Below are positions 19,921 through 59,843 of a stretch of DNA of 64,000 nucleotides, piece by piece. Within the stretch, counting starts at the first letter, position 1; every line of letters begins with the position of its first letter. The DNA comes from Litoditis marina (lineage: Eukaryota; Nematoda; Chromadorea; Rhabditida; Rhabditidae). Position numbers and translations under genes: made by a program. A model generated the notes under the pieces. The model had not been told where the DNA came from. It searched no databases and saw nothing but the letters and a program-made list of their open reading frames with translations. The stretch lies in the NCBI GenBank assembly GCA_964036275.1, contig OZ038438.1:14987720-15051719 (forward strand). Reading direction: 5' to 3'.

Positions 19921-19955
19921 TATCACAATAGCATCCGTGTTGTTGACGTAACGAC

Positions 19956-21158
19956 TCAATATTGAGGTTCAGTGGGAGGATAGAGACCACCAGCTCCATT
20001 TTCGATACATCTAACCGTACGGAAATCTACTTCATATCCACGATAGTCGATAGCTTCCCATCTGGAAAAGTTTTTTTAATTACGATAAGTGTGAAATATT
20101 AAGTTTTGACACAATCCTCTTACTAACCTTCCTCTCTTGTTACATTTAGCCAATTGATCTGTTCCAAATCCGTGGAAAAGTACATCTCCATAAGCAGTCT
20201 CCAAAGTGTAAGGTCCAGGGGTATTTCCACGATCGCAAGAAATAACAGCACGCTTGCAATTGTTCTTTGACGTGAGATACCTGCAATACTAGTTGAGTAC
20301 TGAATGGGAACCATTTCAACCTGTATTCTGTATTATCACACTCGTGCACCTCTCGACTACAAGCTTCTAATTGATTAGATTCATGTGCATGATACCTAGA
20401 TCTAGAGCACAGGACGAAAAAACTGTGTTACTTGTATTGTTCTTAGTCATTGATAAAACGGAATGTACACCAATAGGTTTGAGCATAACCCACCGAATTG
20501 TGGGTCTGAAACACTGTTTGTTACCATAGTAGTCGCGGCAAGATTTCTTGATTTTTCTACATTCTTCACACTTCGGGGAATGTTCTTGAGAATCTATAAA
20601 TTATTATTTGTCTCACACACACTTATTCAATAGTGAATGAACAAACTTGTACGATTCACCACATTTTTGAGAAATACCCATTGCATTTCAGTTTAGCCTA
20701 AATTCTTGGTTTCCACGGACGCTACCCACCCAACTTACAAAATTATCTGTGACATAATTTGGTTGATTGTATGACTGTTTAAACGTATGATCGTACTGAT
20801 TGTCAACGAAACCTACCAGATCTGTCCTCATGACTCTCACTGCTGTCTCCGTAACTGCGTCTGCGATTGTGATGTACTCTGTGTCCATTGTGAAAAGGAT
20901 TCTGTAAACAACAAAATGAGTAACTGAGAGTTCTCGATTTTTGCGACTGGTGAAGTGTTTTTCAGGCAAAGTTTACGAAGAACTTGAAAAATACTCGCAG
21001 CTTGACTTCAGCTATTATTCCCCTACCTCATTCTGTAGGGAGCCGAGTGATGGGAATGGGTCAACTGGTCCCACTGGGTATGGCCCAATCGGCTGCGGTA
21101 CATCATATCCCTGGGACATAACACCAACGAAAAGGGTCAACAAAACTATCGAGAGCAT
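19956..21158 (-). CDS. Family A secreted Cys-rich protein, copy A1 (left arm of P1)
   Basis: Five exons mirror those of A2: 21158-21027, 20901-20817, 20593-20494, 20280-20128 and 20061-19956, giving 191 aa. The start follows ATATTCCAG directly, as a trans-splice acceptor would. A signal peptide (MLSIVLLTLFVGVMSQ) is followed by GYDVPQPIGPYPVGP. Exon 2 is His/Arg/Ser-rich. Exon 3 carries C-x2-C-x6-C-x7-C (CEEC...SC...QC), exon 4 NNCKRAVISC and KCNKRGR, and exon 5 TVRCIENG, eight cysteines in all. The GC(x5)C ... C(x)nRGRW ... V(x)C spacing resembles the nematode C6 extracellular domain. The assignment is from memory of the pattern, not from a profile search. Function unknown; expected to be secreted. 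Confidence 0.85.
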
Positions 21159-21489
21159 CTGGAATATAACTGCTTAACGAAAAAAAATGTCGAGTCAAAA
21201 CTAAGTCTTTTTCGTCTGATTTGTGATTCGAGTGACCGTGGTTTATCAAAGAGTTCTAGAGGTGCCATCAACTAAGGTATGAAGTCGATGGGAGAATTGT
21301 GAGATAATTTCTTCCACAGTCCTAATAGGCTTAAATAGGTGACAGCGTCGTCTCATATTTTGATGATATTCCATATTGTGATCGGTCATCTATCGGAATA
21401 AATGATGAAACATTCAAATGACGGCAGATTCTATAGAAGACAATTAATGAACAAGATACAATTTGTATTATGGAAAGGCATTTGTCCTT

Positions 21490-22575
21490 TTAACATTTTC
21501 ACGTGCGAATTACCTAACACACTTGCAGATTCGAGTGTTAAATTCAAGGTTTTCGCAGACGATACGAAAGTTTATAAGTCGTTTAAACTTGGAGAGTCTA
21601 ACAAAGAGCTGCAAAGTTGTTTAGATAGAATGTATAAGTGGTCTGTAGATTGGGGGTTACCACTATCAGTAGAAAAATCGCAAGTTATGCATCTGGGCTA
21701 CAACAACCCAAAGCAAAACTATACATTGAACGGAGCAGTTATGAAGCAAGTCACTGAAAAAGTTAGAGATCTGGGTTTCTTGTTAAATAGCAGTCTTTCC
21801 TTTCAAGATCATGTGCGACATATTGTACAGCTAGCAAAATATAGAACTTAAAATCTTTTCAAGGTATTGAAAACCAATAAAGAAAGTATTTGGATTAAAG
21901 CGTACAAAACCTATATTCGTCCAATGGTTGAGCTCGGAACAACGGTGTTCAATTCAGATAGAGGATTCGTAAAGAAAATTGAATCAGTTCAGAACGATTT
22001 CACCAGAAAATTGTTCTTCCGGCTTGGTGGCTACAAATATTGCACTATTCCCAGCTCTTCATTTAGAAACAGGAAATTAAAATTGATAGCATTGGAATCT
22101 AGAAGAAATACAACCGATTTAGTTATGATACACAAAATAGTAACCGGACAATGTGGTCTAAATGCGATTGACTTGTTCACTTTCAATCGTTCACGTACTC
22201 GAGGTACAAAGGAAAAGATTAGCTTTCCAATACCGAAAACTAGTCATCGTGCACAGTTTTTCACTGTTCGTGCCGGTTCAAAATACTTGAAACACAGCAC
22301 GAACAAAAATATTCCGAGTTCTCTTGCGGCGGCCAAGAAATATTTTTCGGAAAAGCACTTGTAACTGACCTTACTATGTTTATTTATCAGAACCCCATTG
22401 AAGTGTCGATCGTTGTACTGTAGTCATATATATGCTCGTTCAATGTCCACTTTTCTGTTCATCGTGGTTTCGATTATTGTTTTCATTTTGCTCAAATTCA
22501 GTTGGTTTTCATTTACGTTCTGTTTGTCTATGTATCTCACATGCTTGTATGTATATAAATCAATCAATCAATCTA
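21490..22575 (+). mobile_element. 5'-truncated CR1-like non-LTR retrotransposon in the centre of P1
   Basis: One reading frame carries the C-terminal half of a non-LTR reverse transcriptase: the FADDTKVYK box, SVEKSQVMHLG, then VRDLGFLLNSSLSF, and a thumb/C-terminal region ending near 22364. A single in-frame TAA at 21849-21851 interrupts it; the same frame resumes immediately and runs 165 more codons. The element ends with an AATC tandem tail (ATCAATCAATCAATC, about 22558-22573), the kind of short 3' repeat seen in CR1-group LINEs. The 5' truncation coincides exactly with the left arm boundary of P1. It lacks endonuclease and most of the RT and is dead. Confidence 0.85.
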
Positions 22576-22910
22576 CGCTTCTGATGAAGGACAAATGCCT
22601 TTCCATAATACAAATTGTATATTGTTCATTAATTGTCTTCTATAGAATCTGCCGTCATTTGAATGTTTCATCATTTATTCCGATAGATGACCGATCACAA
22701 TATGGAATATCATCAAAATATGAGACGACGCTGTCACCTATTTAAGCCTAATAGGACTGTGGAAGAAATTATCTCACAATTCTCCCATCGATCTTAGTTA
22801 ATGGCACCTCTAGAACTCTTTGATAAACCACGGTCACTCGAATCACAAATCAGACGAAAAAGACTTAGTTTTGACTCGACATTTTTTTTCGTTAAGCAGT
22901 TATATTCCAG

Positions 22911-24114
22911 ATGCTCTCGATAGTTTTGTTGACCCTTTTCGTTGGTGTTATGTCCCAGGGATATGATGTACCGCAGCCGATTGGGCCATACCCAGTGGGA
23001 CCAGTTGACCCATTCCCATCACTCGGCTCCCTACAGAATGAGGTAGGGGAATAATAGCTGAAGTCAAGCTGCGAGTATTTTTCAAGTTCTTCGTAAACTT
23101 TGCCTGAAAAACACTTCACCAGTCGCAAAAATCGAGAACTCTCAGTTACTCATTTTGTTGTTTACAGAATCCTTTTCACAATGGACACAGAGTACATCAC
23201 AATCGCAGACGCAGTTACGGAGACAGCAGTGAGAGTCATGAGGACAGATCTGGTAGGTTTCGTTGACAATCAGTACGATCATACGTTTAAACAGTCATAC
23301 AATCAACCAAATTATGTTACAGATAATTTTGTAAGTTGGGTGGGTAGCGTCCGTGGAAACCAAGAATTTAGGCTAAACTGAAATGCAATGGGTATTTCTC
23401 AAAAATGTGGTGAATCGTACAAGTTTGTTCATTCACTATTGAATAAGTGTGTGTGAGACAAATAATAATTTATAGATTCTCAAGAACATTCCCCGAAGTG
23501 TGAAGAATGTAGAAAAATCAAGAAATCTTGCCGCGACTACTATGGTAACAAACAGTGTTTCAGACCCACAATTCGGTGGGTTATGCTCAAACCTATTGGT
23601 GTACATTCCGTTTTATCAATGACTAAGAACAATACAAGTAACACAGTTGTTTCGTCCTGTGCTCTAGATCTAGGTATCATGCACATGAATCTAATCAATT
23701 AGAAGCTTGTAGTCGAGAGGTTCACGAGTGTGATAATACAGAATACAGGTTGAAATGGTTCCCATTCAGTACTCAACTAGTATTACAGGTATCTCACGTC
23801 AAAGAACAATTGCAAGCGTGCTGTTATTTCTTGCGATCGTGGAAATACCCCTGGACCTTACACTTTGGAGACTGCTTATGGAGATGTACTTTTCCACGGA
23901 TTTGGAACAGATCAATTGGCTAAATGTAACAAGAGAGGAAGGTTAGTAAGAGGATTGTGTCAAAACTTAATATTTCACACTTATCGTAATTAAAAAAAAC
24001 TTTTCCAGGTGGGAAGCTATCGACTATCGTGGATATGAAGTAGATTTCCGTACGGTTAGATGTATCGAAAATGGAGCTGGTGGTCTCTATCCTCCCACTG
24101 AACCTCAATATTGA
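22911..24114 (+). CDS. Family A secreted Cys-rich protein, copy A2 (right arm of P1)
   Basis: Exons 22911-23042, 23168-23252, 23476-23575, 23789-23941 and 24009-24114 give 191 aa with intron phases 0,1,2,2. The ATG sits immediately behind TTATATTCCAG. Residues 1-16 form a signal peptide (MLSIVLLTLFVGVMSQ). Then come a Pro/Gly-rich stretch, a His/Arg/Ser/Glu linker (exon 2), and the cysteine region: CEECRKIKKSCRDYYGNKQC, NNCKRAVISCDRG, AKCNKRGRWEAIDY and TVRCIENG. The domain resembles the nematode C6 cysteine domain. The coding sequence is almost identical to A1 and clearly related to A3 and A4. Head-to-head pairing with A1 originally allowed a shared upstream region, now split by the LINE. 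Function unknown. Confidence 0.88.
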
Positions 24115-24150
24115 GTCATTACGTCAACAACACGGATGTTATTGTGATAT

Positions 24151-25240
24151 CTTGAAATGAATATCGAAATCATTTTTCGCGGATGGATCGTGAAAACACA
24201 GCTGTGACAAGACGAAAATACTATTTTTGAGCTGAAAGCAGATCTGCACTTCGGTTTGATATAAAAAAAGTTCATCAAAAAATGGGCTAGCATGTGTGCT
24301 GAATGAATTGATCCATTGTATCAGTCTTTGGGGAATAACTAAATTACTAGAATACAATTTTCTCACAAGTGCTCTACTCTATTTCATCAATCGAAAACTT
24401 TTACAGTAAGCCTTTAAATTTTCAGGAGTCTTTTTCTGGTGAACAATTAAACAATTGAATCTTTTCGTTTTAAATTGCGAGAGTTTGTAATAGGAACGAT
24501 GGAGAAGGCAGTATTAACTGGAAGAGATCGAAAAATCTCAAAATACCAAAGTTTGACTTGGATGTTTGAGCGGATTACTGTAGAAGCTTGTGTGTGCATG
24601 ATGAAGACTATTATTTACCTGCGTTGAGACTGTTATATCACTGCATACAAACAAGAGGCACTTTTTTTGATCGAACTCGTTTTACATCGGAGTATTGAAT
24701 TAAATTGATTTATACACATATTTGTGCAACTACATCGCAAGTACTTTCCAACTCGTGGAGTGAAAAATAGAAGTTATTTCGTTGGTTTCTCAAATTATTC
24801 GTTTCTGAAAATGAACAAATCTTAAATGAAAAATAATTATTATACCGTATGATCACGTACAATCAACCTGAACTAGTCCCACCTTCGCTGATCTAGTCAC
24901 GATAGCGTTGGATGTATAACTAAATTGCTTGCAACAGGAAACACAGTCATCAACAAAGGTGAAGCACAGCTATTTTGCTTGTATATATTTTTGAAACGAT
25001 CTAAACGTCAACGTGGATAATGAATAACAATTACTCTGTACTTTTACGACAAAATCAAACTTGCAATATAAACACCCCCGTGTGTACGCTAGAATTACAT
25101 ACGTAAACGTAAAATAAACCGATTACGTTGAATTTGAGAAATAAACAGATCATCGAAGGTCCTTTTCGTGGTCTCACATCGTACTGGTGGCAGGTTACGT
25201 ACATAATTTGTGCCTTCATCTGACACTTTTGCACATTATT
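24151..25240. other. Intergenic, between A2 and a GC-rich open frame
   Basis: AT-rich sequence without recognisable exons or repeats. The first 80 bp or so (to about 24230) still resemble the 3' flank of A4. Confidence 0.5.
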
Positions 25241-25256
25241 TGACTGTCACTAAGAA

Positions 25257-25473: not shown

Positions 25474-26255
25474 CAAACAGTATTCAATCATTTTTATATC
25501 ATCATAATCAACATATTCAAAATCACATAGTTTTGTTTAGGAATAGTCGAAGATTGAAACGGAACGGCAACAACCAGGATTGAAACAAATGGAGGATAAC
25601 AAAAACTCTGAAAAAAAAAACAAGTGGGGTAAAATGTATGATGATTACATGGAGATTCGTTGAATTGACGTCAATTGGTAAACTCGGCATAGCTCAAACG
25701 CCTGGATTTTCTCCCATGGTGATCAAATGCTGATAAAACTGATAGTTTGCGTATCAACGGCAAGTTATGGCGCAAATTTATAGGGATCATAAGTTTCTCA
25801 CTAAGTTCATGAACTTTGTCATAACAGAAATAACTTCACCATTTTCCCTTTTCGCAGGTGCATGTATTTTCAAGTTTGTTATATTTTGGAGTCGTCTGAA
25901 ACATGGAAATGTTTTGACGACGGTTCTCTCAATTATGTGACAAATTCAAAATAAATGAAAAAACATACTCACTCAGCAGCCTAAATTGATATGAAACAGC
26001 TAAACAAATTTTCGTTTAAAAGCTCTCGAAGTTTTCTCAGAATCAGACCAATTGCGAACATGGTCTTCATGGTTTTTTTTCTTTCATTCACATGTGCTCG
26101 AATTTATTTAGTATTAAAATGTGTTTCACTACATACATTTGAGTGTCTCACGAAAGCGCTTTTCAACATCCACTCGAAACTCAACGCCTTTCCATGATAA
26201 ACGTATTTCTTAACATTATACTGTTTACATTGACCAAAATTATCGTGGTTCCAGA

Positions 26256-27288
26256 ATGTTCCGTGTCGCTTGTCTCAGTGTGCTGGTGGGATTGGCGATT
26301 TGCCAAGGTTACGGTGTTCCCTCTAACAATCCTGCTCAACCGGTACAGTACCCCGCAGCTCTACCAGCACCAGTACCCGAGATGACTGCTCAGCACGAAA
26401 TGGTCAGTTCCCAGCTAACTGTTACTTCCGTAACTTGAATCTAGGATTTTATGAGAGTTGTTGTCACGTTCAGTGTCGAACCTGCGAGCAAAAGACTCGC
26501 AGCAGGCAGCTTACCACTGCGCTATTACAGTACATAATAGCCATGTTTTGGAATCGAAGACATGTGTGCGTACACAGCGGAAAGTGAGATATACAATACA
26601 CATCTGCCTTTCCGTTGGCGACGATTATAGTGTTCAAACCAATTCATTCCAGTTGTACCCTCGCAAACATCACAGACGCAGTTCTTCAAGTAGCAGCGAC
26701 AGCCACGAACACAGTTGTAAGTGACATAGTTTCCATATCAATATCTTCCCAACCTGTTAGTTCATCAGCATACTGTCAATAATAAACGGTAATTACACAC
26801 AAACTATTTCAGCTCGTAAAAACTGTCCATCTTGCAAGAAATTGAAAACTAAATTTGATTCCGAAGAGGAAGGCAGTGAGGCTGAGATCACGTGAGTCTG
26901 TTTCGTTTCTGTCTGGTAACCTATATCATTCTCCAAATTCATTCAGCTACATTGCATAAATCTGTTTCAGTTACTTCAAGTACAATGGATGCAGAAGAGC
27001 AATGGTACGTTGTGATATCCCGAAGGCCTTTGTTCAAATCAAGACTTCTGATGGAGAGGTTCTGGCTGAGGGAAAAGGAGTAGAGAAGATGATCAAATGC
27101 GGTGGAAAAAAGTATGTTTATTTCCATTCAATTACAATTCCACTTATTGCTCTGCCTATTAATTCGTTCAGAGCATTACGTCATTCAGACAAGATGAATA
27201 ACCTACTTATTTCAGATGGAAGGCCCACAATACCGATGGTGAAAAAGTACACTTCAAACGCGTCTACTGCTACAGAATGGAGGACTAA
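26256..27288 (+). CDS. Family B secreted Cys protein, copy B1
   Basis: Exons 26256-26402, 26653-26716, 26813-26891, 26971-27111 and 27216-27288 give 167 aa, intron phases 0,1,2,2, identical in layout to family A. The ATG follows GTGGTTCCAGA, consistent with a trans-splice acceptor. Signal peptide MFRVACLSVLVGLAICQ, then GYGVPSNNPAQPVQYPAALP. Exon 2 is LYPRKHHRRSSSSSSDSHEH. The cysteines are NCPSC, GCRRAMVRC, KCGGKKW and VYCY: six, lacking two found in family A. The core again resembles a nematode C6-type domain. B1 is on its own between palindromes P1 and P2, but about 280 bp of upstream sequence (from about 25978) is shared with B2 and B3, so its promoter region was duplicated with it. Function unknown. 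Confidence 0.87.
26474..26530 (-). repeat. tRNA-like (SINE-like) segment in intron 1 of B1
   Basis: Read on the minus strand, TAGCGCAGTGGTA matches a tRNA A box, and GGTTCGAC, about 35 nt later, matches the core of a B box. A closed acceptor stem and T stem are not present, so it is not a working tRNA gene; a tRNA-derived SINE remnant is the best guess. The same segment is in B2 (about 31999-32056) and B3 (about 40950-41006). Confidence 0.5.
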
Positions 27289-27653
27289 TTGATATGTGAC
27301 AAGTATAAAGTTTTTTTTATCGAGCACGAAGCAACACTTCAATGTTCTGGATGGCAAGAAATGATCCATTGAGATTTCTTCTGAGTACACATGTTCAACT
27401 TAGAGAACTCCCTCCAATCGAGTTTTTCAAAAACAATTATTTCATTGGTTTTCTATGTCAAGTACAGTTTGTTGTTAGCTTTCGAAGATTCGTAGTCGTC
27501 GTTGTACGATTTCAGAAATCGATTATAGAGCCCACTTCGAGTTTTACGATTTTCGAATATCTATTCGAGATTTAGATAATTTGAGTCTAGAGTTGCAAGT
27601 TTTTATGATAAGTTCAGTCGAATCTCGCCACTCGCCGAGAGGTTGCAATCCGT

Positions 27654-29417: not shown

Positions 29418-30611
29418 TTAATATTGAGGTGCATATCCACCAGCTCCATTTTCGATACATCTAACGGTACGGAAATCTACTTCATATCCACGATAGTCGA
29501 TAGCTTCCCATCTGGAAAAAATTATTCTGTTGCGAATTGTGAAAAGTGTGGAAGAGAAAGTTTTCAATCAATCCACTTACTAACCTTCCTCTCTTGTTAC
29601 ATTTAGCTAATTGATCTATTCCAAATCCGTGGAAAAGTACATCTCCATAAGCAGTCTCCAAAGTGTAAGGTCCAGGGGTATTTCCACGATCGCAAGAAAT
29701 AACAGCACGCTTGCAGTTGTTCTTTGACGTTAGATACCTGCAATACTAGTTGAGTATTAAATGAGAACCAGTTTCACATGTGTTCTGTAGTATCACGTTC
29801 GTGCACCTTCTATAAACCAGAACAATCCGAGAGAAATTTCTCGAATCGTTTGCCAATGCGGCTTCTAGCTCAAAACTATACAGGAAAGACTCTTTTATAT
29901 CAGAGAGACGAATAATATCAATAGTTGTTCAAAACATGGCTCGACTCAAAACCTACCGAATGGTTGGTCTGAAACAGTGTTTGTCTCCAAAGTAGTCACG
30001 ACAAGATTTCTTGATATTCCTGCACTCTTCACATTCTTGGGAGTACTCTTGGGAACCTGAAAGCTATACGCTCTGACCTGATTTGGATTATCAACTGTGT
30101 ACTCTAATACAATGTAAATTACCAACCTAAAATGACGTAATGAATACTTAGGTGAGCATGTTTCAACGAAAAGACGGATTCCGTTTATGTTTAAACTCAT
30201 TAGAAATGAAACTGACCAGATGTTTCTTCCTCACTGCTGCTGTGACTGTCTCTGTGTTGGTGATGTCCTCTGTATCCACCACGAGGAGGGTACTGCAAGA
30301 ACATCAGAAACATGCTACTGTTTTCCGTTATATTCAATTGTTAACAATAACCACATTATTCTGAATTGTATTACAGTATTACACAATTTGCGTTCAGATA
30401 CTTGATATAACTCACGTCTTGACCTATCAGTTTAAAGGTGATAAAAACATTTTTCGGTTACTTTTCGATCTACCTGATTCGGTGGGAGCTCCAGTGTCGG
30501 AAATGGATCTACTGGTCCCACTGGGTATGGCCCACCCGGCTGGGCGGGAGGTACACCATATCCCTGGGACATAACACCAACGACAAGGGTCACACAAAAG
30601 ATCGACAGCAT
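29418..30611 (-). CDS. Family A secreted Cys-rich protein, copy A3 (left arm of P2)
   Basis: Exons 30611-30474, 30292-30217, 30056-29957, 29737-29585 and 29511-29418 give 186 aa. The ATG follows an acceptor-like AG. Signal peptide MLSIFCVTLVVGVMSQ, then GYGVPPAQPGGPYPVGPVDP. Exon 2 encodes YPPRGGYRGHHQHRDSHSSS plus acidic residues. Cysteines are arranged as in A4 (CEEC, SC, HC, NNC, SC, KC, RC). It differs from the other three copies at the C-terminus: after ENGAGG it reads YAPQY and stops, skipping the LYPPTEP segment. The sequence beyond the stop also departs from A4, so the outer edge of palindrome P2 lies inside this last exon. It is divergent from B2, about 1.2 kb away. Function unknown. 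Confidence 0.87.
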
Positions 30612-31781
30612 CTGAAATAAGTTAGTTCTACGGAGAAACCGTAACACGCAAAATACAACTATTCGGGTTACTTTGGATGTGCCCGGAGGGTGAAAGCGTT
30701 GGGATCAGGCGGGTTAACTTGGTTGGCTGGTGGACGCAGCCATTTGTATGAACAGAAAGGGGAAAGTGAGTTGGTGATCTTAACTTCAGGGGCACTTAAA
30801 TAACGATTATCTCAGCTGAATGTTTTCATGATGTTTCATGTTGTTATGATCATCTATCGAAATTGAAGACGGCACAAGAGAGCGCAAAATGAATCAGAAA
30901 CAATCATAATCAGTTCAAGGAATACGTCATTCGATAAAAATCGAAGACAAGGTATAATAACCTTCCAGACATTAATATGTGCAAACAGTAAGCATCTATC
31001 TTCTCTGGTTTTTCATGAACGTTAAGTCATTAGTCCTCTCCTGGCTACGTGAGTATAGGTTGGAGGTTAGACTTCAAAACGAGGTTTGAAGATGTCATAT
31101 CTTTTATTGAAGAAGCTTTACTAATACTCAGAACGTTTGAGTTCTACCACAGATATTTATCTTTAATTCTGTGATTGACTGGGGCATTATAAGTTCTGGA
31201 ACAGTGAGAGCCTAATGTAAACTTGCGTCTCACGCTGAGGTTGAAACAGTATATTTACAAACTACGGACATTGGACGATCAACTAGAATTGTATTGGTGG
31301 TACTGCTGAACTCTTAGAACTCGTACCAATAGACTTCAAGTCGAACGTCTAATTCAAAATTTGAGCCATCTTTAAGAAATAAGTGAAGTTGATTGTATGA
31401 TCAACTCATTTCTTGTTCTTGTTCTAATCATCAAGGCGAACCACGCAACACGTTTGATCATTTTCTCAATTTCATGACAAATGAAAACAAATGAGCCATA
31501 AGCTGCCTGAATTGATATGAAACAACTAAACACATTTTCGTTTAAAAGGTCTCTAAATTTTCTCAGAATCAGACCAATTGCGAACATGGTCTTCATGGTT
31601 TTTTTTTCTTTCATTCACATGTACTTGAATGTATATAATACAAAAATGTGTTTCATTATATGTACTTGAGTGTCACACAAAAGCGCTTTCTAACATCCAC
31701 TCGAAACTCAACGCCTTCCATGATAAACGTATTTCTTAACATTATACTATTTACATTGACCAAAATTATCGTGGTTCCAGA

Positions 31782-32814: not shown

Positions 32815-32993
32815 TTGATATGTGACAAGTATAAAGTTTTTTTTAGAGTATGTTGCAACAAGTCAGTTTCGTTGATGGAAAATAATATTCAGTAAGTAAC
32901 TAGAAAACATCAAATTTGTTGTTCGAGGAATGGGAAGTGTGTTGATTTGTAGTGGAAAGTGTAATGCATCACGCACTACAAATCAATACAAAT

Positions 32994-34735
32994 TTGTAAA
33001 AAGTGGGGGGACCATATGTGAGTTGTGTTTGGTTCGACCTCGACATCAGCGAAAAAAGAACGATACGAATTGCTGTGATACTGTAGCAGAAGTATTCTGC
33101 AAGAATAGAACAATACAAATGTTGCACAATGGTTCACGAATATTTCAGAAATTGCCGAAGGGTATTTCATGTGTACTTTGACGACATGCGTGCATTCACT
33201 TTTTGCTGATATCGAGGTCGAACCAAACACAACTCACACATTTGTTGGTTCCCCCACTTTTTACTAATTGTCCGTTTTTTGCTAGTTGTACTCCTACAAC
33301 TTCATATGTTGCCTATTCACAGAGTGGATCTTCTGAACTCATTAGATTATTATGGAAATCTCAGTTTTGTGTGTGCACGAAGCTGAATGCAGACTATAAA
33401 ATTGCTGGTGTTGTAATATAACGCACGTTACTGGCTCTGTGGCTATCAACAACTGAACAAAAACGCTAAACGTTCCAATTGACATGTACACCGCTTTTGG
33501 CGGCGATAAGCGAACGGGATTGGCGCCATTGACAAATCTACAATTAGTCAATTAGAGACACCAACTCACTTACAATATAGCCATTATTTCCAATACCACA
33601 TCAAAAACCTTCATGTTGGAACTTTCTTGTTTTCGTTCCAGCGCCAATTGGCACACGCGTCTGGTGCCAGAACGAAACGAAATTTTCTAGGTTTTTGAGC
33701 TACCAGTACACACTACATGTGTCAATTACTGAATGGAGCGATATTCAAACTATTCAATTGTCAGTTTCGTATGTTTTTGTTTTGGCGCCATTCGGCGTCT
33801 GTTCCGAGCCAGAAGATAAAATTCGATTTTGAATTGGTGGATCTATATTTCGCATTGGAATATTCAATATCTGTTAACTTGAAACAGTTTGATTGACGAT
33901 AACTGATATTTTTCAACTTTGGCGCCAATTGGCGCCAGCGCACGGTGCCAACAAAACTTTGTTTTCGATTTTCAGATTTAGCATCTTACTTGGCATGTGA
34001 TAGTTATTGAGTGTACCGAATTTCAGACGATTCCATTGACGCTGTCGTGGGTTAGGGTTTTAGCGACATTTGGCGCCGACAAATTTCAGTTTTGGAAAAT
34101 GACTTTCACACTTTCCACCAAATTATTCAATTTCTATTAGTGTTCAACATTTTAGTTGACGATAAATAGTGTTTTGCCGTTTTTGGCGCCGATTGGCGCC
34201 AGCGCCGGGCGCCAATGATGATGTGTTCATCTCAAATTTGGCGCGACGGGCTAACTTTTGCATTATAACTCATGTTTCAAACTTCAGCTAAATCGGTTCG
34301 ATAGTTTTTCCAATAGTCGTTTTTGGCGCCTATTGGCGCCCGGTGCCAGAGATTAGATATACATTTCATACTTGGCGCGACGAGCTAACTTTTGCCATGG
34401 AACAGATGTTTCAAATTTAAGCCAATTTGGTTCAGAAGTTTTTCCACTACGATGCGGACAGAATTCAGTGAGGGAGGAGGGTGGAGGGACGAGGGACGAA
34501 TTACGGCGGAACTTTTCAACAACGACACGAAACCATAACTCAGGCGAAAATAATCCGATTTGGCTGAAATTTTCACACAATGTTGAATTCGTGATTCTCT
34601 AACGTTCTCTTTTCTTAGTTTTCAAAAAAAGATCATATTTGGAGCTTTTTGTTAATTAAAAGGAAAAAACGAGTCCGCAATGGGCAATGGCCAAACCAAA
34701 AACAACTCACGCAGAGCGCTTCGCGCTCCGCGCGA
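32994..34735 (-). mobile_element. Helitron-like non-autonomous repeat, copy H1
   Basis: Read on the minus strand it begins TCGCGCGGAGCGCGAAGCGC next to an A and ends near CCACTTTTTACAA next to A/T. It carries many GGCGCC palindromes, several in the form GGCGCC-NATT-GGCGCC (for example near 33920, 34190 and 34325). At the 3' side it has a large fold-back: 32994-33070 pairs with about 33195-33272, centred near 33130. H2 has the same ends and internal features. No transposase or helicase is encoded; the open frames inside are not conserved between the copies. Confidence 0.65.
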
Positions 34736-36365
34736 TATTTAATACACAGTATGTAATGACGGAAAGAAAGTTTGAAAAGTGAACGATCGAAAAAGGGGAA
34801 AATGGTGAAAATTTGATGAACATTGAACATGGCAAAAAAGATAGAAGAATATTGTATAGATTCAATACTGAAGCTAGTTTTCTGACTTAGCTACCGAATA
34901 ACAATCTCAACCGCTGGCTCGTATTCCTAGATAGAATATAGTTGGCGGTAGGTTTTCTTAGTCTCTCCGAACTGGGGTCTATATACAATTATTCAAAAAG
35001 TAGAGAGTTCTGTATACAAACTGTAATATACTCACTTTCAGCAGACAGAGTAGTGGAGTCAAAGACATCCAGGAACTCGAAAACCAGTTCCACCTTGACA
35101 CACTAGTTAATGGAATAGAATATATTTATTCGTGATTCAACACGTGACATTCCACATTGTTGGATGTGGCACTCCGATTGGAGAAATAAAAGAAGAGAAA
35201 TTTGGATGATGAAAAGAGTAATGTGACCCTGTTACGCGCATAATGATTGCTGCCTTATGAGATTGAACGGTGACTGTACCTGTTTTTGTAGGAGAATAAT
35301 AGTATTTCGGAATCCTTTTCGGGAAGATCTTGCTATTTTATTTTTGAGATCATCAAGTGGTCCCTGGTTTGGTTGGGACTATATGAATATGCGAATGACC
35401 AATGCAAAACTAGAATTAGAAGATGAGCGATCACAGATTACGGTACATGTACAAAACATATAATGCGTTGTTCAACGGTTAACCAGTTTTCTCACTCTAC
35501 GCTTCAACTCAATCATACTAATAATAATGATGACTCGTCAACAGACAATGTTAAACACTATGAGTATCGAACTTTCTGATCTCGAAAATGATATAACGCA
35601 GGAGAAAACAAGGTATCCAGGATATGTGTGGATCTCGTGACTGTATAAGGGAAGGCCAGGCGCGGGTGGCGAGAGTTGACGAGACTTCTCATGGGGCCTG
35701 GGCAGCTGGAGCGGGCTGGAGGTGGACGAGTGGCATTGGACTGGCGAACGCAACTATCCAACCTGGTATAGTCTGGCTGCAAAAGGTGCAACCACCAACC
35801 TTCCCCCATAAGTCACGAGGGCACAATGGTCGATGTTCAAAAGACAGGAGGTTTCAAATATAATGAAGTAGAGAAAGTTCAGAGACACAATTGAATAAAT
35901 TACACACTTTGAACAGAACAGTATCGAAAACTAAACTCTTATTTTCTCATTTTGACTACTGTGAAACACATATGTGAAGCGTAGAAATCACCTAGAACGT
36001 ATGAAACTGTTTAGTATTCTTAATCAAATCATTACCAACATATTTTGCTACGACTATGGGAAAAAAGATGCTGATCAGGACAATCAACCGTTCAAATGAG
36101 TACAACCTGGATATATGATACTGATAAAAAATGAAACATGTTGTGTGTAGTTTAGCGCTGTAGTCCACAAATGATTGCGGCAATAGTTCGATAGTTTGTG
36201 GAGTGCCACATCTACTAAACAAATACATCAAATAACATTATCATATCTTTGTTTTGTCATTGGAATGGAGCGTCATGGAACACTTCATGGGAGACAGTGA
36301 CAGTTGAGTGGCAGTCGGGAACCAATGCATGAGAAAGAAGAACTGGAATTTCGAGTAGAGTAAAT
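34736..36365. other. Transposon-flanked spacer, no gene supported
   Basis: The block at about 35620-35840 is GC-rich and open in several frames on both strands, which suggests a decayed transposon, but no protein motif is recognisable. The remainder is AT-rich without exons. Confidence 0.4.
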
Positions 36366-36369
36366 CAAC

Positions 36370-38180
36370 ACATCACACTACTTTAATTTTCATGAGAATC
36401 TCTTTATGCTCATCTTGAGACATGTTTGCACTATAGAATGATGTTGGAAGTAATCTGGACCAACGACTGAGTCTCATGAAATATGAGTGATAATAAGGAT
36501 TGAACTTGGTAAAGTCTATTTGAATTTCAAATTGACTATTTCGGCCTCCGGTCGGGCGCAACACAAAAAAGTTAGAAAATTTCAACGGAGACACAGAATT
36601 TAAAAGTTGCTTGAAGAAGTTAAGCAAGTCAATTTTCACTCAACTCCCAACTAGGTGCTCGAGCTCGAACATTTTCAATCGATTTTCGTATGAAGGTGCG
36701 TCTCTTGGCGAGACTCTGTTCAGTTTACAGTACAATATTCTAGTAAAGGTTCGTTGCACGTTTTCAATACATAAGATATCTTTGTTAAGGTAAGGGCTCC
36801 ATACACTGCAACCATACTCAAGAATAGGTAGCACGTAAGATTTAAATAATCTAATGGCACATTGTGAGTTGGGGTTCGCAAACAGTCTCACATCGCGCCT
36901 TCCTAGTCAAGTTTTCGATGTGCGTAGTGAATGTGAGATGATTATTCACAAGAATACCCAGATCTTTCATAGTCTCAGTTGTTTCAAGGTTTGTCTGATC
37001 ATAAAGCGTATAACAATGACATGGGTTTGTTTTTCCAAAATGCATTATGCGAGTTTTGGTTGCCGACAGCTTGAGTTGTCGAGCTGACATGTAGAAAACT
37101 AGAGAATCTATACAGGCCTGCAAAACATGTGTATCAGAATCGGTTTGAATAGTTTTTAGCATTTTCAGATCATCAGCAAACATATATAAACGCACCCATG
37201 ATGGAATAATTTTTGGTAAATCAAAAAGAAAAACTGAAAACAGTATTGGGCCAAGAACTGAACCCTGGGGCACACCACTAATCACCAAAAGATTATGAGA
37301 AAGAACCGTTAATATTGACTTTGCAAGAACGATTTTTGATAAAAGACGAAATCCAACACCACACCAACAACACCTCTCACTCCTACTTTAGCTAGGATGT
37401 GTAGCACTTTATCATGAGATACAGTATCGAAGGCCTTGGCGACATCATAGTACATTACATCAACGTTGGAACCAGAAGAAACACTACTTAAAACTTTGTT
37501 GGTGTAGTCGAGCAATTGGTGGGAAGTTGACATTCCAGAGCGGAACCCAGACTGTTCTTTCGGAAGAATACAATTATTGTTCAACCAGGCTTCAAGAGGT
37601 TTTTTGATACACCGTTCCATCAGTTTACAAGGAGTACACGTTATGCTAATAGGTCGATAGTCAGATGGTTCTGACGCGTTTCTAGTTTTTGGAACAGCTG
37701 TCACGAATGAACGTTTCCATACTTGAGGTACAGCACCTAACCGCAATGATATATTAAAAATGTGGGCTAATGGTTCAGTGATTACACTATAACATTCCTT
37801 GAATATTGCTTGAGGAATACCATCTGGAGAGAACGAAAATGATGGTTTCATTGTTTTACATACTGCAAAAATGTCTGAGGGGCATATTAAGAATGAGCTC
37901 AGAATACGATTGCTTGGTAATACCAAAGTTGGTCTACTACCATTATCGGTAACAAAAACAGAACTGAAGTAATCTGCCAATAGTTGAGCTTTTCGCTCAT
38001 CTTGATTTAACTTTAGTATTATTAGCATCGGTTATAACAATTTCTGTCTTTTGTGACCTCATTTTTTTCTTGACGAAAGCATAGAACTGTTTTGATGAGT
38101 CGTTTATAACCTTTTTCTCTTGTAGAGAAACAAACGTTTAATTTCATTAGCTAGTCTCTTGGAAACAACATTATATTTCT
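36370..38180 (-). mobile_element. Decayed CR1/Jockey-like LINE reverse transcriptase
   Basis: Minus-strand fragments in two frames cover most of a non-LTR reverse transcriptase. The first (to 37309) has SDYRPISITCTPCKLMERC, EQSGFRSGMSTSHQLLDY and YYDVAKAFDTVSHDKVL. The second (37288-36851) has GVPQGSVLGPILFSVF, YMFADDLKML and KDLGILVNNHLTF. The third (36891-36373) has the C-terminal YVLPILEYGCSVWSPYLNKD region and one in-frame stop. There are at least two frameshifts. Upstream, to about 38180, a further shifted frame (SSKQFYAFVKKKMRS) continues the linker before the RT. The endonuclease domain is missing. It differs from the LINE in P1, so two insertions are involved. Confidence 0.88.
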
Positions 38181-38586
38181 CAAGAACAGAAGGTTAGGCA
38201 GACTCGAAAAACATTCAGGAAACTGTCTGATAGTATAACCAAAATTCAACCTTAAATCAGGAAATGCGTTTCTTGTTGGCCGAATGGAGAACACGCTCTT
38301 TTTCTGTAGTTTCACCGTTATCACAAGGAAGTGAAGACGGTTTTCTCTGAGAAACGGAATTTTTCAACAAGTTGTTTTGAGTTTTGATACTCCAAAATAT
38401 ATCGAAACTCGAAGCCTAAACTCAATCAATTCGTTAAATCGTCCTACAAGCGATAATACGACAGATAATACGAGCCTTCTTGTTTGATTTTTCAAATGGG
38501 GTCAAAAAGAAAGCTATTTGAGGAAGAATTAAAATGTTTTTAGTTTCTTACAGACTTTTTCTTACAACAGTGTTACAGTGTTAGTC

Positions 38587-40075
38587 AGGCTGCGTTCACA
38601 CTTCGCGCCTCCAACTCGAGCCGCTGCATCTGGATGCAGCGGCCAAAAATAGCAAAGGCTGCATTTCAGTCAAAAGCCGCTGCATCCGGATCTGAAAGCT
38701 GAAAGCCGCTGCTTCTTGCTGTCGAGAAGTATGAACCTACTTGGAGGCCGTTACGATTTTCTCAAACTTGAGCAAAATTCTAACATTATATAATTTTGTT
38801 TAATTTCAGGTCTATACGCAAACCGTGCCATTGCGTACGCTTGTCCTATCGCTCTGGCGCGGAAAGAAGATGCAATTCTATTTTCGCCTTGTGTATACTT
38901 CAAATGACTAGACGCCTGCGGCGTCCAGCAGTTATACATGTTGTAGATCACAAAATTTGCTATAGAATGATACCAAACACGACTATATTGTATTTAATCA
39001 AACAATTTCATTTTCCTGCGTGCCATTGAATGAATGTGATATTTACGCCTGTCGACGTATTTTTTGCTTTCACTGCGTGCAAACGGCCTGTCGAACAATT
39101 TTACGCAATCTAGACGCTCGCCAACGTACAATGTTCATTTTACGGCATGCCTAAGACCTGCCAAAAAAACTGTCGCGCGCGCTTTTCTCGTAATTTTGAA
39201 TAGTATTTGACGTTATCAGATACTACTACACTCTACGCCGAATTTGAAACGATTTCATCCACTCTGAAAAAACTGTCGCGTCGCGTGCAGCTCGCGCTAT
39301 TTTATTAAAATTTGACTGGTATTTGACGTAAGAAGATACTACCACACTCGCACGCCAAATTTGGTACGATTTCATCCACTTTGTAAAAACTGTCGCGTCG
39401 CGTGCAGCGCGCGCGTTCTCTCAGAAATATGAATTGTATTTGACGTTATCAATAACTACCACACTCGCACGCCAAATTTGGTACGATTTCATCCACTCTG
39501 AAAAAACTGTCGCGTCGCGTGCAGCGCGCGCGTTTTTTTCAAAAATGTGAGTTGTATTTTACGTTATCAGATACTACTACACTCGTACGCTAAATTTGGT
39601 ACGATTTCATCCACTTTAAAAAAAACTGTCGCGTCGCGTGCATGCGCGCGCGATATTTTATTGTGAATTTATGAAAAATAATAGCTCTGACGGTTGCACA
39701 CCGGTATTTCCACTATAAAATTGCTGCTCACTGATGATATTGTTCCAAACACCTGACAGAACTTTATTAAAAATGCACAATGGGAACAGAACAACAAATA
39801 AACTCAAGTTACAAAGAAAATGCAAGCACGGAAGTGGCCGCTGCCTTTGATTGCAAGCAAAGGCAGCGGCTTCTTGAGTTGGATGCAAAAATATCCCAAA
39901 CCGGCGGCAAAAGTGAGCGGCCGCTGCAAAATAAGTATGAACCTCCTAAATGCACCTGGGTGCACGAGCCGCCGCACCTGGATGCGGCGGCTCAATCGAT
40001 AATCATGTTTTTAGCAGGCGAGCCCCCAGGTTGCGAGGCCGCTGCATCTGGGTGCACGTAGTGTGAACGCAGCCT
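38587..40075. mobile_element. DNA transposon with 16-bp terminal inverted repeats, no transposase
   Basis: The left end AGGCTGCGTTCACACT (38587-38602) is the exact reverse complement of the right end at 40060-40075. CAGTGTTA occurs at 38576-38583 and again at 40076-40083, a probable 8-bp target duplication, with three extra bases (GTC) between it and the left end. The subterminal parts contain repeated GCCGCTGCATC motifs that form hairpins. The middle holds a tandem satellite. No transposase frame is visible, so it is non-autonomous. Superfamily unassigned; 8-bp duplication fits hAT or Merlin. Confidence 0.75.
39169..39660. repeat. Tandem satellite, about 118-bp unit, 4-5 copies
   Basis: The motif AACTGTCGCGTCGCGTGCAG recurs at about 39169, 39272, 39389, 39507 and 39625. 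In between are TATTTGACGTTATCAGATAC and CCAAATTTGGTACGATTTCA, giving a unit of roughly 118 bp (first spacing 103). It lies inside the TIR transposon. Spacers are not unique, so this is not a CRISPR array. Confidence 0.9.
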
Positions 40076-40190
40076 CAGTGTTACAACATATTCTGAACTC
40101 AAAAGAAATCTCAATCGTTTCTCGCAACCCAAAACATCGAAGTGTTGCTTCGTGCTCGATAAAAAAAACTTTATACTTGTCACATATCAA

Positions 40191-41223
40191 TTAGTCCTCC
40201 ATTCTGTAGCAGTAGACGCGTTTGAAGTGTACTTTTTCACCATCGGTATTGTGGGCCTTCCATCTGAAATAAGTAGGTTATTCATCTTGTCTGAATGACG
40301 TAATGCTCTGAACGAATTAATAGGCAGAGCAATAAGTGGAATTGTAATTGAATGGAAATAAACATACTTTTTTCCACCGCAATTGATCATCTTCTCTACT
40401 CCTTTTCCCTCAGCCAGAACCTCTCCATCAGAAGTCTTGATTTGAACAAAGGCCTTCGGGATATCACAACGTACCATTGCTCTTCTGCATCCATTGTACT
40501 TGAAGTAACTGAAACAGATTTATGCAATGTAGCTGAATAAATTTGGAGAATGATATAGGTTACCAGACAGAAACGAAACAGACTCACGTGATCTCAGCCT
40601 CACTGCCTTCCTCTTCGGAATCAAATTTAGTTTTCAATTTCTTGCAAGATGGACAGTTTTTACGAGCTGAAATAGTTTGTGTGTAATTACCGTTTATTAT
40701 TGACAGTATGCTGATGAACTAACAGGTTGGGAAGACATTGATATGGAAACTATGTCACTTACAACTGTGTTCGTGGCTGTCGCTGCTACTTGAAGAACTG
40801 CGTCTGTGATGTTTGCGAGGGTACAACTGGAATGAATTGGTTTGAACACTATAATCGTCGCCAACGGAAAGGCAGATGTGTATTGTATATCTCACTTTCC
40901 GCTGTGTACGCACACATATCTTCGATTCCAAAACATGGCTATTATGTACTGTAATAGCGCAGTGGTAAGCTGCCTGCTGCGAGTCTTTTGCTCGCAGGTT
41001 CGACACTGAACGTGACAACAACTCTCATAAAATCCTAGATTCAAGTTACGGAAGTAACAGTTAGCTGGGAACTGACCATTTCGTGCTGAGCAGTCATCTC
41101 GGGTACTGGTGCTGGTAGAGCTGCGGGGTACTGTACCGGTTGAGCAGGATTGTTAGAGGGAACACCGTAACCTTGGCAAATCGCCAATCCCACCAGCACA
41201 CTGAGACAAGCGACACGGAACAT
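40191..41223 (-). CDS. Family B secreted Cys protein, copy B3 (right arm of P2)
   Basis: Exons 41223-41077, 40826-40763, 40666-40588, 40508-40368 and 40263-40191 give 167 aa, a mirror image of B1 (positions sum to 67479). Signal peptide MFRVACLSVLVGLAICQ; exon 1 is identical to B1 rather than to its palindrome partner B2. One notable change: MIKCGG reads MINCGG. Six cysteines as in B1. Sequence after the stop resembles B1 further than B2, past TCGAGCACGAAGCAACAC and on toward the TIR transposon. Divergent partner of A4, now separated by 2.5 kb because of the H2 insertion. Function unknown. Confidence 0.87.
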
Positions 41224-42058
41224 TCTGGAACCACGATAATTTTGGTCAATGTAAACAGTATAATGTTAAGAAATACGTTTATCATGGAAAGGCGTTGAGT
41301 TTCGAGTGGATGTTAGAAAGCGCTTTTGTGTGACACTCAAGTACATATAATGAAACACATTTTTGTATTATATACATTCAAGTACATGTGAATGAAAGAA
41401 AAAAAAACCATGAAGACCATGTTCGCAATTGGTCTGATTCTGAGAAAATTTAGAGACCTTTTAAACGAAAATGTGTTTAGTTGTTTCATATCAATTCAGG
41501 CAGCTTATGGCTCATTTGTTTTCATTTGTCATGAAATTGAGAAAATGATCAAACGTGTTGCGTGGTTCGCCTTGATGATTAGAACAAGAACAAGAAATGA
41601 GTTGTTCCTACAATCAACTTCACTTATTTCTTAAAGATGGCTCAAATTTTGAATTAGACGTTCGACTTGAAGTCTATTGGTACGAGTTCTAAGAGTTCAA
41701 CAGTACCACCAATACAATTCTAGTTGATCGTCCAATGTCCGTAGTTTGTAAATATACTATTTTCAACCTCAGCGTGAGACGCAAGTTTACATTAGGCTCT
41801 CACTGTTCCAGAACTTATAATGCCCCAGTCAATCACAGAATTAAAGATAAATATCGCTGGTAGAACTCAGACGTTTTGAGTATTAGTAAAGCTTCTTCAA
41901 TGAAAGAGACATCAAAGGAGACATCTTCAAACCTCGTTTTGAAGTCTAACCTCCAACCTATACTCACGTAGCCAGGAGAGGACTAATGACTTAACGTTCA
42001 AGAAAAACCAGAGAAGATAGTTGCCTACTGTTTGCACATATTAATGTCTTGAAGGTTA

Positions 42059-43385
42059 TCGCGCGCAGCGCGAAGCGCTGCGTGTGAGTTGTGTTTGATT
42101 TGGCTATCGCGCACCCATTTTTAGCTTTCAAATCACAAAAGTCTTCAAATAGAACTTTTTTTTCGGAATTTAAAAAGAGAGAGAGCTAGAGATCTATTAG
42201 ATACATGTTGTGTGAAAAACTTAGAGAAATCGGTCGAGTTTAAAAAAAGTTATGTTCTCGTGTCGTTATGAAATTTTCCGTTGTCCCTCGTCCCTCGTCC
42301 CTCGTCCCTCGTCTCCCGTCTCCCGTCCCATGTCCGCATAGTATTGAAAAAACTACTGAACCGAATCGACTGAAAATTGGCACACTCATGTGAACCCCAA
42401 AGTTGGCTTGGCGCCGTATGTTGGTAGTCGATACGTTGTGTCTGGCGCTTGGCGCGGGCGCCAGATGGCGCCATAAGCTGAAAAACATGTGTTTCCATCA
42501 GTGAAATGGTTTAAAATTATGCATGGAGATCCGAATAGTGAATTTAAGCTACTTACCAGAATATGGTGCCTTGGATTATATTTGGCGCCAAACGCTGGCG
42601 CCCACTGGCGCCAAATGAGAACAACGCTAGCCAGGTAGGGTAACGACCGCCATCGTTCACAGAGGTCAACACTATGAATGTAGTTGAAAAATACGACTCG
42701 TGTACCCAAAGTTTTTCGATGGTCGGCGCCAAAATGCTCTTTTATCCGCCAATTGGCGCCAAGATTGAAAATAAGGTTTCCAAACCAAAAAGCCGCCGAA
42801 AATTAGCTAATTGGTCAAGGCCATATATTCCAGTTAGTTTTTACCAATTGGAGTAACATGTTGGCGCTGGCGCCAATTTTAGAGGTCAACTGGCGCCAAA
42901 AATATTTTGAAAAACCAGAATCACACCGTTCGAAAACTCGAAACTTCGTCCAGATATCCGGATATTTGATAGTCACCACTTTTCGAAGTTCGCTTTCCGT
43001 ATTTTCCTCTAGAAGGGATTGTACTAGTACAACTAGCAAAAAGAGCACAATTCGTAAAAAGTGAGGGACCAAGAAGTGTGTGAGTTCTGTTTGATTTCAC
43101 CGTTTTCAGCAAAAAGTGAACAATACGATGTTGTTAATGAGTGTGCAACAAAAGTAGAACAATACATTTGTTTGCACAACGGTTCACAATGTTTTCAGCT
43201 GAAATCACTATGCATTTTCACCTTGAATTATTATTGTAATAGTTCTTTGTGAACCGTCGTGCAAACAAATGTATTGTTCTACTTTTGTTGCACACTCATT
43301 CACAACATCGTATTGTTCACTTTTTGCTGAAAACGGTGAAATCGAACAGAACTCACACACTTCCTGATCCCCCACTTTTTACGAA
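42059..43385 (+). mobile_element. Helitron-like non-autonomous repeat, copy H2, inserted in the right arm of P2
   Basis: Begins TCGCGCGCAGCGCGAAGCGC after GGTTA and ends CCCACTTTTTACGAA before TTATACC. The corresponding site in the left arm (30951-30962, complement GGTTATTATACC) is empty. The element therefore sits between A and T with no clear target duplication, as Helitrons do, and starts with TC. The usual CTRR 3' end is not seen. It contains GGCGCC palindromes, a GTCCCTC tandem tract (about 42280-42335) and a 3' fold-back: 43042-43201 pairs with about 43238-43385. No protein is encoded. Confidence 0.7.
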
Positions 43386-43731
43386 TTATACCCTGTCTTC
43401 GATTTTTATCAAATGACGTATTCCTTGAACTGATTATGATTGTTTCTGATTCATTTTGCGCTCTCTTGTGCCGTCTTCAATTTCGATAGATGATCATAAC
43501 AACATGAAACATCATGAAAACATTCAGCTGAGATAATCGTTATTTAAGTGCCCCTGAAGTTAAGATCACCAACTCACTTTCCCCTTTCTGTTCATACAAA
43601 TGGCTGCGTCCACCAGCCAACCAAGTTAACCCGCCTGATCCCAACGCTTTCACCCTCAGGACACATCCAAAGTAACCCGAATAGTTGTATTTTGTGTGTT
43701 ACGGTTTCTCCGTAGAATTAACTCATTTCAG

Positions 43732-44937
43732 ATGCTGTCGATCTTTTGTGTGACCCTTGTCGTTGGTGTTATGTCCCAGGGATATGGTGTACCTCCCGCT
43801 CAGCCGGGTGGGCCATACCCAGTGGGACCAGTAGATCCATTTCCCACACTCGAGTTCCCACCGAATCAGGTAGATCAAAAAGTAACCGAATAATGTTTTT
43901 ATCACCTTTAAACTAATAGGTCAAGACGTGAGTTATATCAAGTATCTGAACGCAAATTGTGTAATACTGTAATACAATTCAGAATAATGTGGTTATTGTT
44001 AACAATTGAATATAACGGAAAACAGTAGCATGTTTCTGATGTTCTTGCAGTACCCTCCTCGTGGTGGATACAGAGGACATCACCAACACAGAGACAGTCA
44101 CAGCAGCAGTGAGGAAGAAACATCTGGTCAGTTTCATTTCTAATGAGTTTAAACATAAACGGAATCCGTCTTTTCGTTGAAACATGCTCACCTAAGTATT
44201 CATTACGTCATTTTAGGTTGGTAATTTACATTGTATTAGAGTACACAGTTGATAATCCAAATCAGGTCAGAGCGTATAGCTTTCAGGTTCCCAAGAGTAC
44301 TCCCAAGAATGTGAAGAGTGCAGGAATATCAAGAAATCTTGTCGTGACTACTTTGGAAACAAACACTGTTTCAGACCAACCATTCGGTAGGTTTTGAGTC
44401 GAGCCATGTTTTGAACAACTATTGATATTATTCGTCTCTCTGATATAAATAGAGTCTTTCCTGTATAGTTTTGAGCTAGAAGCCGCTTTGGCAAACGGTT
44501 CGAGAAGCTTTTCTCGGATTTGTCTCGTTTATAGAATTTGCACGAACGTGATAATACAGAATACAGGTTGAAATGGTTCCCATTCAGTACTCAACTAGTA
44601 TTACAGGTATCTCACGTCAAAGAACAATTGCAAGCGTGCTGTTATTTCTTGCGATCGTGGAAATACCCCTGGACCTTACACTTTGGAGACTGCTTATGGA
44701 GATGTACTTTTCCACGGATTCGGAATAGATCAATTGGCTAAATGTAACAAGAGAGGAAGGTTAGTAAGTGAATTGATTAAAAACTTTCTCTCTCACACTT
44801 TACACATTTCAAATAGATCAATTTTTTCCAGATGGGAAGCTATCGACTATCGTGGCTATGAAGTAGATTTCCGTACGGTTAGATGTATCGAAAATGGAGC
44901 TGGTAGTCTCTATCCTCCCACTGAACCTCATTATTAA
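43732..44937 (+). CDS. Family A secreted Cys-rich protein, copy A4 (right arm of P2)
   Basis: Exons 43732-43869, 44051-44126, 44287-44386, 44607-44759 and 44832-44937 give 190 aa, phases 0,1,2,2. ATG directly follows AACTCATTTCAG. Signal peptide MLSIFCVTLVVGVMSQ, mature start GYGVPPAQPGGPYPVG, exon 2 YPPRGGYRGHHQHRDSHSSS, then CEECRNIKKSCRDYFGNKHC, NNCKRAVISC, KCNKRGRWEAIDYRGYEV and RCIENG: eight cysteines, C6-domain-like. The first three exons and introns match A3. Exon 4 and the intron sequence just before it match A1/A2 instead, and the C-terminus (LYPPTEPHY) is of the A1/A2 type. The gene is therefore a mosaic. Function unknown; secreted. Confidence 0.88.

Positions 44938-56122: not shown

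Positions 56123-59843
<3,721 letters not shown>

Follow-up and report, generated by a model that had tools for sequence, protein, structure and literature searches.

Zhao et al. (2007; PMC1803023) described long inverted repeats that carry divergent pairs of paralogous genes in Caenorhabditis elegans, C. briggsae and C. remanei. Those pairs, among them the hsp-16 locus, F44E5.4/F44E5.5 and the F42F12.* pairs, were duplicated as units, their identity is limited to parts of the genes, and conversion was proposed. The type is marked by an inverted structure that is kept between species while the sequence diverges (PMC1803023). Similarly, interlocus conversion in C. elegans operates between inverted neighbours, in short tracts, and yields mosaic genes (reviewed in PMC3966223). 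Here we describe a palindromic locus of Litoditis marina with seven genes for putatively secreted, cysteine-rich proteins of two families, A and B. It is located in a window of 64,000 nucleotides (OZ038438.1, positions 14987720-15051719), i.e. on a contig of 18.5 Mb, called contig C19 below, of an assembly with 261.8 Mb in 522 contigs. The locus is a new example of the known arrangement with unusually readable exchange tracts.

As in the Caenorhabditis pairs, head-to-head paralogs are embedded in long, alike inverted repeats with identity in parts only (PMC1803023); divergent paralogs in such repeats and signs of conversion between the copies were both found. Unlike in Caenorhabditis, what appears to be another protein family is involved, the arms have 1.6-3.4 kb and the spacers contain retroelement fragments. 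Exchange between inverted neighbours, short tracts and mosaic genes are shared with the C. elegans conversions (PMC3966223), yet here exchange also joins two repeats about 20 kb apart and exon halves are affected. The locus thus adds to the palindromic gene pairs of worms a case with retroelement fragments in both spacers and a Cys-rich family unmatched by Pfam. In this animal locus the exchange between copies can be followed exon by exon, a clean natural case with a third branch of the family, C, elsewhere in the genome for comparison.

Seven intact genes in two inverted repeats

Seven intact genes with five exons each, four of family A and three of family B, were modelled between positions 19956 and 44937 of the window (Table 1). 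Six of them form the head-to-head pairs A1/A2, A3/B2 and B3/A4 within two inverted repeats whose arms are 96.5-98.5% alike. Repeat 1 contains one A-A pair, repeat 2 two A-B pairs. Six genes in head-to-head pairs within two inverted repeats are the layout that had been proposed in an earlier reading of the sequence (the original prediction), which the composition of the pairs refines. The gene count was confirmed as well: 7/7 frames are complete and run over five exons, with GT..AG introns in phases 0,1,2,2. The introns have 66-250 bp. B1 is unpaired, yet it matches B3 (96.4% over 1450 bp) and B2 (95.6% over 1418 bp); between the coding sequences of B1-B3 there are 1 to 7 differences per 504 bases. 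The identities and lengths of the repeats far exceed chance.

The extra 1.3-kb stretch in the right arm of repeat 2 has no counterpart in the left arm, which runs on without a break at the matching place. This fits a later insertion, and the stretch probably is one. It contains a GGCGCC-rich repeat, 70% alike to a spacer copy near 34.4-34.7 kb. A 339-bp hairpin (43049-43387; related to 33195-33299) is mostly inside it.

Two further observations concern the introns. Intron 4 of A4 (44760-44831; 72 bp) has no in-frame stop, and its retention would add 24 residues. Intron 1 of each B gene carries a dispersed repeat of about 157 bp (26476-26634, 32002-32160 and 40845-41003), with further copies at several places in four other examined loci (L055, L057, L058 and L059). 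By eye it has a tRNA-like head and is a candidate short interspersed element; ARAGORN with bacterial settings gave no tRNA there.

Table 1. Features of the palindromic locus (positions in the window) and intact genes of branch C (positions on contig C1; aa, amino acids; LTR, long terminal repeat; RT, reverse transcriptase; E, expectation value).
Feature	Position	Strand	Basis or remark
Inverted repeat 1, left arm	19908-21489	.	98.5% over 1583 bp to 22587-24162
Gene A1, five exons, 191 aa	19956-21158	-	exon-by-exon model
Repeat 1 spacer, 1.1 kb, non-LTR retroelement fragment inside	21490-22586	+	RVT_1 match in 21402-21848, E 6e-7
Inverted repeat 1, right arm	22587-24162	.	mirror of 19908-21489
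Gene A2, five exons, 191 aa, protein identical to A1	22911-24114	+	exon-by-exon model
Gene B1, five exons, 167 aa	26256-27288	+	exon-by-exon model
Gene A3, five exons, 186 aa; 3' end departs from other A copies	29418-30611	-	exon-by-exon model
Inverted repeat 2, left arm	29439-32860	.	96.5% over 1521 bp and 97.8% over 1917 bp to 40143-44904
Gene B2, five exons, 167 aa	31782-32814	+	exon-by-exon model
Repeat 2 spacer, 7.3 kb, with repeats and non-LTR RT fragment 37312-38031 (-)	32861-40142	.	RVT_1 E 1.1e-12
Inverted repeat 2, right arm	40143-44904	.	mirror of 29439-32860, plus extra 42060-43384
Gene B3, five exons, 167 aa	40191-41223	-	exon-by-exon model
Extra 1.3-kb stretch, right arm of repeat 2 only	42060-43384	.	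missing at matching place near 30957, left arm
Gene A4, five exons, 190 aa	43732-44937	+	exon-by-exon model
A4 3' part, far closer to A1/A2 than A4 5' part	44548-44937	+	431-site count
Gene C1	contig C1 13205550-13209403	-	spliced alignment, phases 0,1,2,2
Gene C2	contig C1 13211607-13213738	+	spliced alignment, phases 0,1,2,2
Gene C3	contig C1 13216369-13218528	+	spliced alignment, phases 0,1,2,2
Gene C4	contig C1 13221354-13224313	-	spliced alignment, phases 0,1,2,2

Exchange between gene copies

The A genes of the two repeats are alike in one half and different in the other. Between A1/A2 and A3/A4, exon 1 differs by 17-18%, exon 2 by 36% and exon 3 by 20-21%; introns 1-2 differ at about half of the sites and the promoters are strongly different. 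By contrast, 2-4 of 153 sites are different in exon 4 and 4-7 of 94-106 in exon 5. The similarity border falls in intron 3: of 431 sites which split A1/A2 from A3/A4, 418 are situated at or left of position 44547 in A4 and 13 to the right. A4 sides with A1/A2 against A3 at 34 sites. Only 5 of these are left of the border; the others are at 44554-44628 (11 sites), at 44736 and 44793, and at 44877-44928 (16 sites, which in part reflect the deviating end of A3). When the gene halves are treed separately, A3 and A4 are joined by the 5' half (support 86), but not by the 3' half. In the simplest reading, the A 3' part would first have been exchanged across the repeats, and a younger exchange would then have gone into A4.

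Among the B genes, 47 sites unite B3 with its arm partner B2 to the exclusion of B1, and 43 of these lie upstream of the gene. Another 28 sites unite B3 with B1 to the exclusion of B2, namely 8 at 26223-26461, 18 at 27325-27373 and 2 elsewhere; B3 stands apart from both at 8 sites. The sites in the 3' flank are located where the similarity of B2 runs out, and the 8 sites in and around exon 1 are firmer. Judged by these sites, B3 is mosaic, with parts like B2 and parts like B1. As read from the alignments, the mosaic copies call for conversion, or some equivalent exchange, both from arm to arm and across the two repeats.

A third branch of the family

Protein searches of the genome with B1 and A2 returned the seven genes plus matches on contig C1 alone (21.0 Mb; the contig is distinct from gene C1). 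Matches were listed to E up to 10 and their counts are lower bounds. By spliced alignment at least four intact genes of a third branch, C, lie within 19 kb of contig C1; this count is also a lower bound, taken from stretches of the cluster between which 35 kb lie. The C genes have the exon plan and Cys frame of the A/B family, with introns of 225-1342 bp. C2 and C3, in tandem, are 98.6% alike over 3.5 kb. The best alignment of a broken copy, C0a, shows a stop in exon 4, and of a partial copy at 17.97 Mb of the contig, C5, exons 3-5 alone are recognisable. Both were excluded from the counts of intact genes, the substitution ratios and the trees. The unrooted protein tree has three groups, A, B and C, of which the closest two are not resolvable. 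The family is therefore larger than the locus on contig C19, which is one of two or more clusters. A and B are paralogous, as had been proposed; they share leader, Cys frame and exon plan, and A and B proteins are about 33% identical.

A stretch 87-90% alike in DNA to the retroelement fragment in the spacer of repeat 1 is located between C-branch genes of contig C1 (locus L056). Beside gene C4 there is a long, internally repeated stretch with units of about half a kilobase in both orientations (L058:5388-10000). A dispersed repeat of about 130 bp, present in the window in inverse orientation at 8335-8470 and 17911-18043, occurs in all five examined loci of contig C1.

Selection on the copies

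Between the diverged A pairs exons changed far less than introns. A2 and A4 differ at 69/308 sites in exons 1-3 and at 210/473 in introns 1-3 (p 2.9e-10); for A1 and A3 the values are 72/308 in exons and 139/281 in introns (p 4.5e-11). The ratios of nonsynonymous to synonymous change (dN/dS, Nei-Gojobori), a check called for in the original prediction, were 0.39 for exons 1-3 of A2/A4 and A2/A3 and 0.21 for A3/A4, whereas constraint was not visible in B1-B2. For C2/C3/C4 dN/dS was 0.25-0.33 by the same method. When neutral change at intron divergence was simulated (one lineage, substitutions only), exons 1-3 stayed open in 219/5000 runs. Because open frames were so rare, the intact frames favour selection between the diverged A pairs, though not within arms. 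The linker exon had a ratio of 1.27, with nonsynonymous change at 22/64 sites compared to 6/81 in exon 3 (p 8e-5). By these counts the His/Ser linker changes fast; its ratio in itself is no demonstration of positive selection.

It had been proposed that selection or conversion maintains the copies. The A and B mosaics bear out conversion. Selection can be upheld between the diverged A pairs, but it does not follow from the intactness of the near-identical arm copies.

Properties of the proteins

All seven A/B proteins begin with a hydrophobic leader followed by QGYDVP (A1, A2) or QGYGVP (the other five). Leader, QGY(G/D)VP start, His/Ser linker and Cys core were indeed common to all seven, as originally described. 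Throughout the A/B/C family the leader has suitable residues at -3/-1 before QGY or QGF, and a proline-rich start follows. The linker is encoded in exon 2, the core in exons 3-5. The core has 8 Cys in A and 6 in B. In A and C the frame is C-x2-C-x6-C-x8/9-C-x12/13-C-x6-C-x26-30-C-x21/22-C; B is without the third and fourth Cys. Because B lacks both together, the frame suggests that these two pair with each other. The predicted mature proteins have 17.1-22.6 kDa and isoelectric points of 7.1-9.4, and a second strongly hydrophobic stretch is absent from them.

Pfam C6 (PF01681) had been put forward as the profile to compare. C6 was unlisted at E<=10 for 6/6 proteins, in a search whose HMMER filters remove most matches with E over about 0.1. 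By the curated cut-off the proteins are outside of C6, and the one genome match of the C6 profile (E<=0.001) is on another contig, C18, not at these loci. Weak Pfam matches below cut-off to DUF2797, ArsC, TFIIE-A_C, TrAA12 and Dockerin_1 were taken as chance. A PDB profile search gave 0 matches. In a protein database nothing was found at E<=1 for B1 or for an alignment of six sequences, an absence that means little as the database is no fair nematode sample. It does contain stray animal sequence: a retroelement frame of the window, searched as a control, had 26 matches, and the best of them, on a 3158-base contig, was 92% identical. The literature on C6/DUF281 yielded nothing useful. Judged in collections with few nematode proteins, the family is apparently undescribed.

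Explanation of the locus and alternatives

We propose that inverted duplication of gene units would have raised the copy number, and that conversion would keep the copies alike and spread the 3' core exons. Purifying selection would hold the core, with the His/Ser linker freer to change. The products, putatively disulfide-bridged, would probably be exported and active outside cells as small proteins, and extra copies would give dose. Structure, conversion and selection jointly make a multicopy locus of a secreted, probably disulfide-bridged family the explanation which we favour with reasonable, not high, confidence; its biological role is excluded from this estimate. Several points weigh against it. 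A3, not A4, joins A1/A2 at 15 sites; thus the history was not one single event, and some sites at 44907-44928 may record a change in A3 alone. The exchanges are readable without direction or date. Within pairs the contrast of exons and introns is not significant (p 0.071 for A1-A2, 0.061 for A3-A4, 0.54 for B1-B2 and 0.62 for B1-B3). B1-B2 have about 5.5 nonsynonymous and 0.5 synonymous changes (p 0.35), i.e. constraint is not visible, and the ratio of 0.04 for exon 3 is soft because dS is saturated. Signal peptides were called by hydropathy and the -3/-1 rule only, and the locus is known here from genome sequence alone.

Could the arms be alike simply because they are young, with no exchange at all? 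Arms that are 96.5-98.5% alike, with few changes between copies, and the similar 98.6% of the C2/C3 tandem would agree with recent duplication alone. It fails, however, on the A genes, in which introns 1-2 are about half different across the two repeats and exon 4 is little different, and on B3, which combines the upstream region of B2 with exon 1 of B1. We consider it quite improbable. A still more remote explanation, which we regard as highly improbable, is that misassembly or unmerged haplotypes turned one A-B unit into several. Inverted copies so nearly identical are difficult to assemble, but the arms differ by 1.5-3.5%, the spacers differ, the extra stretch is specific for one arm, and there is no N anywhere in the 64,000 nucleotides of the window, which lies on a contig of 18.5 Mb. 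The large arms with intact genes are also reminiscent of the palindromes with germline genes on the mammalian X or Y. Inverted arms, intact genes and arm-to-arm conversion are shared with the human Y palindromes, yet the arms here are far smaller and their identity is below the >99.9% reported there (PMC3723533). All seven COE1_DBD matches of the assembly are together on contig C19, about 1.05 Mb from the window. We take this gene to be the counterpart of unc-3, the COE gene of C. elegans. Unc-3 is X-linked (PMC9339279), as are the glypican genes lon-2 and gpn-1 and syndecan (PMC3774775). Since the COE1_DBD gene is on the same contig, X linkage of the locus is plausible, from a single X-type marker. 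The C. elegans X has three inverted-repeat paralog pairs; similar worm pairs, however, include heat-shock genes, for which no germline tie is stated (PMC1803023). A sex-chromosome palindrome of the mammalian kind thus appears unlikely.

The core might also be a diverged Pfam C6 domain, and the family an unusual C6 family. By eye, two C6 domains on contig C18 (L060) share C-x2-C ... C-x6-C ... ~30 ... C ... W ... C with the core; the secreted, nematode-type Cys frames, with C-x2-C and C-x6-C, are similar in spacing. The present proteins differ by one core per protein, the His/Ser linker and two more Cys in A and C. A family profile that included the core of C5 was compared with a hand-anchored alignment of the two C6 domains, as an automatic alignment misplaced their Cys (its scores were reached by 6/60 and 4/60 shuffles). 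The outcome was mixed and was not counted in favour of homology. The global score was reached by 0/100 shuffles that kept the Cys columns, but by 5/100 full shuffles, and the local scores were reached by 14 and 7 of 100. Hhalign against the C6 domains gave a probability of <1% and E 0.07-0.55. Together with the failing profile match and intron places that differ between the C6 genes and these genes, this makes membership in C6 a possible but doubtful assignment.

Expression signals and possible roles

An acceptor of the TTNCAG type is located 0-1 base before the ATG in 11/11 intact genes, the 11 not being independent. Spliced-leader addition would give this picture, and so would an intron in the 5' leader; small GT..AG introns with an acceptor before the start codon agree with a nematode. 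The pattern TTTCAGATG occurs 6 times against 1.28 expected; 3/6 are exon-5 acceptors and 1 is outside the locus. As a test of the start-site acceptors this count was discarded since the occurrences are mostly elsewhere. GATA-type sites are present within 300 bp of 8/11 starts, not those of genes C1, C2 and C3, as a raw count without background. Gut expression from such sites would be only a guess.

Copy number, secretion and Cys core had been suggested to fit a reproductive, host-facing or pathogen-facing role. Our first guess for the role, a putative gut- or surface-facing protective one, is tentative and falls clearly short of an even chance. A putative reproductive role comes second and has a rather low probability. 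Speculative, and in our estimate unlikely, would be an X-linked, conversion-driven battery of a secreted family restricted to one nematode lineage, in which the two linked repeats serve as a reservoir, the conserved Cys-core exons are shared across them by conversion and promoters, leader and linker exons are private. If true, the copies would keep one binding module and diverge in targeting or expression. If expression is sex- or gut-specific, the locus could test why such pairs are kept.

Other features of the window

Searches of Rfam at the gathering threshold and with ARAGORN (bacterial settings) gave 0 matches and 0 tRNA genes, respectively. A 117-bp tandem repeat with 4.1 copies is at 39174-39659. 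An immunoglobulin I-set-like exon at 8454-8732 (- strand) had E 1e-4, just under the Pfam cut-off. Two exons of a mitogen-activated protein (MAP) kinase-like gene are at 57209-58075 (Pkinase E 7.6e-14 and 7.5e-9; the best PDB matches are MAP kinases), and the open frame 56123-56341 has the look of its beginning. In C. elegans an ERK5-like kinase is X-linked.

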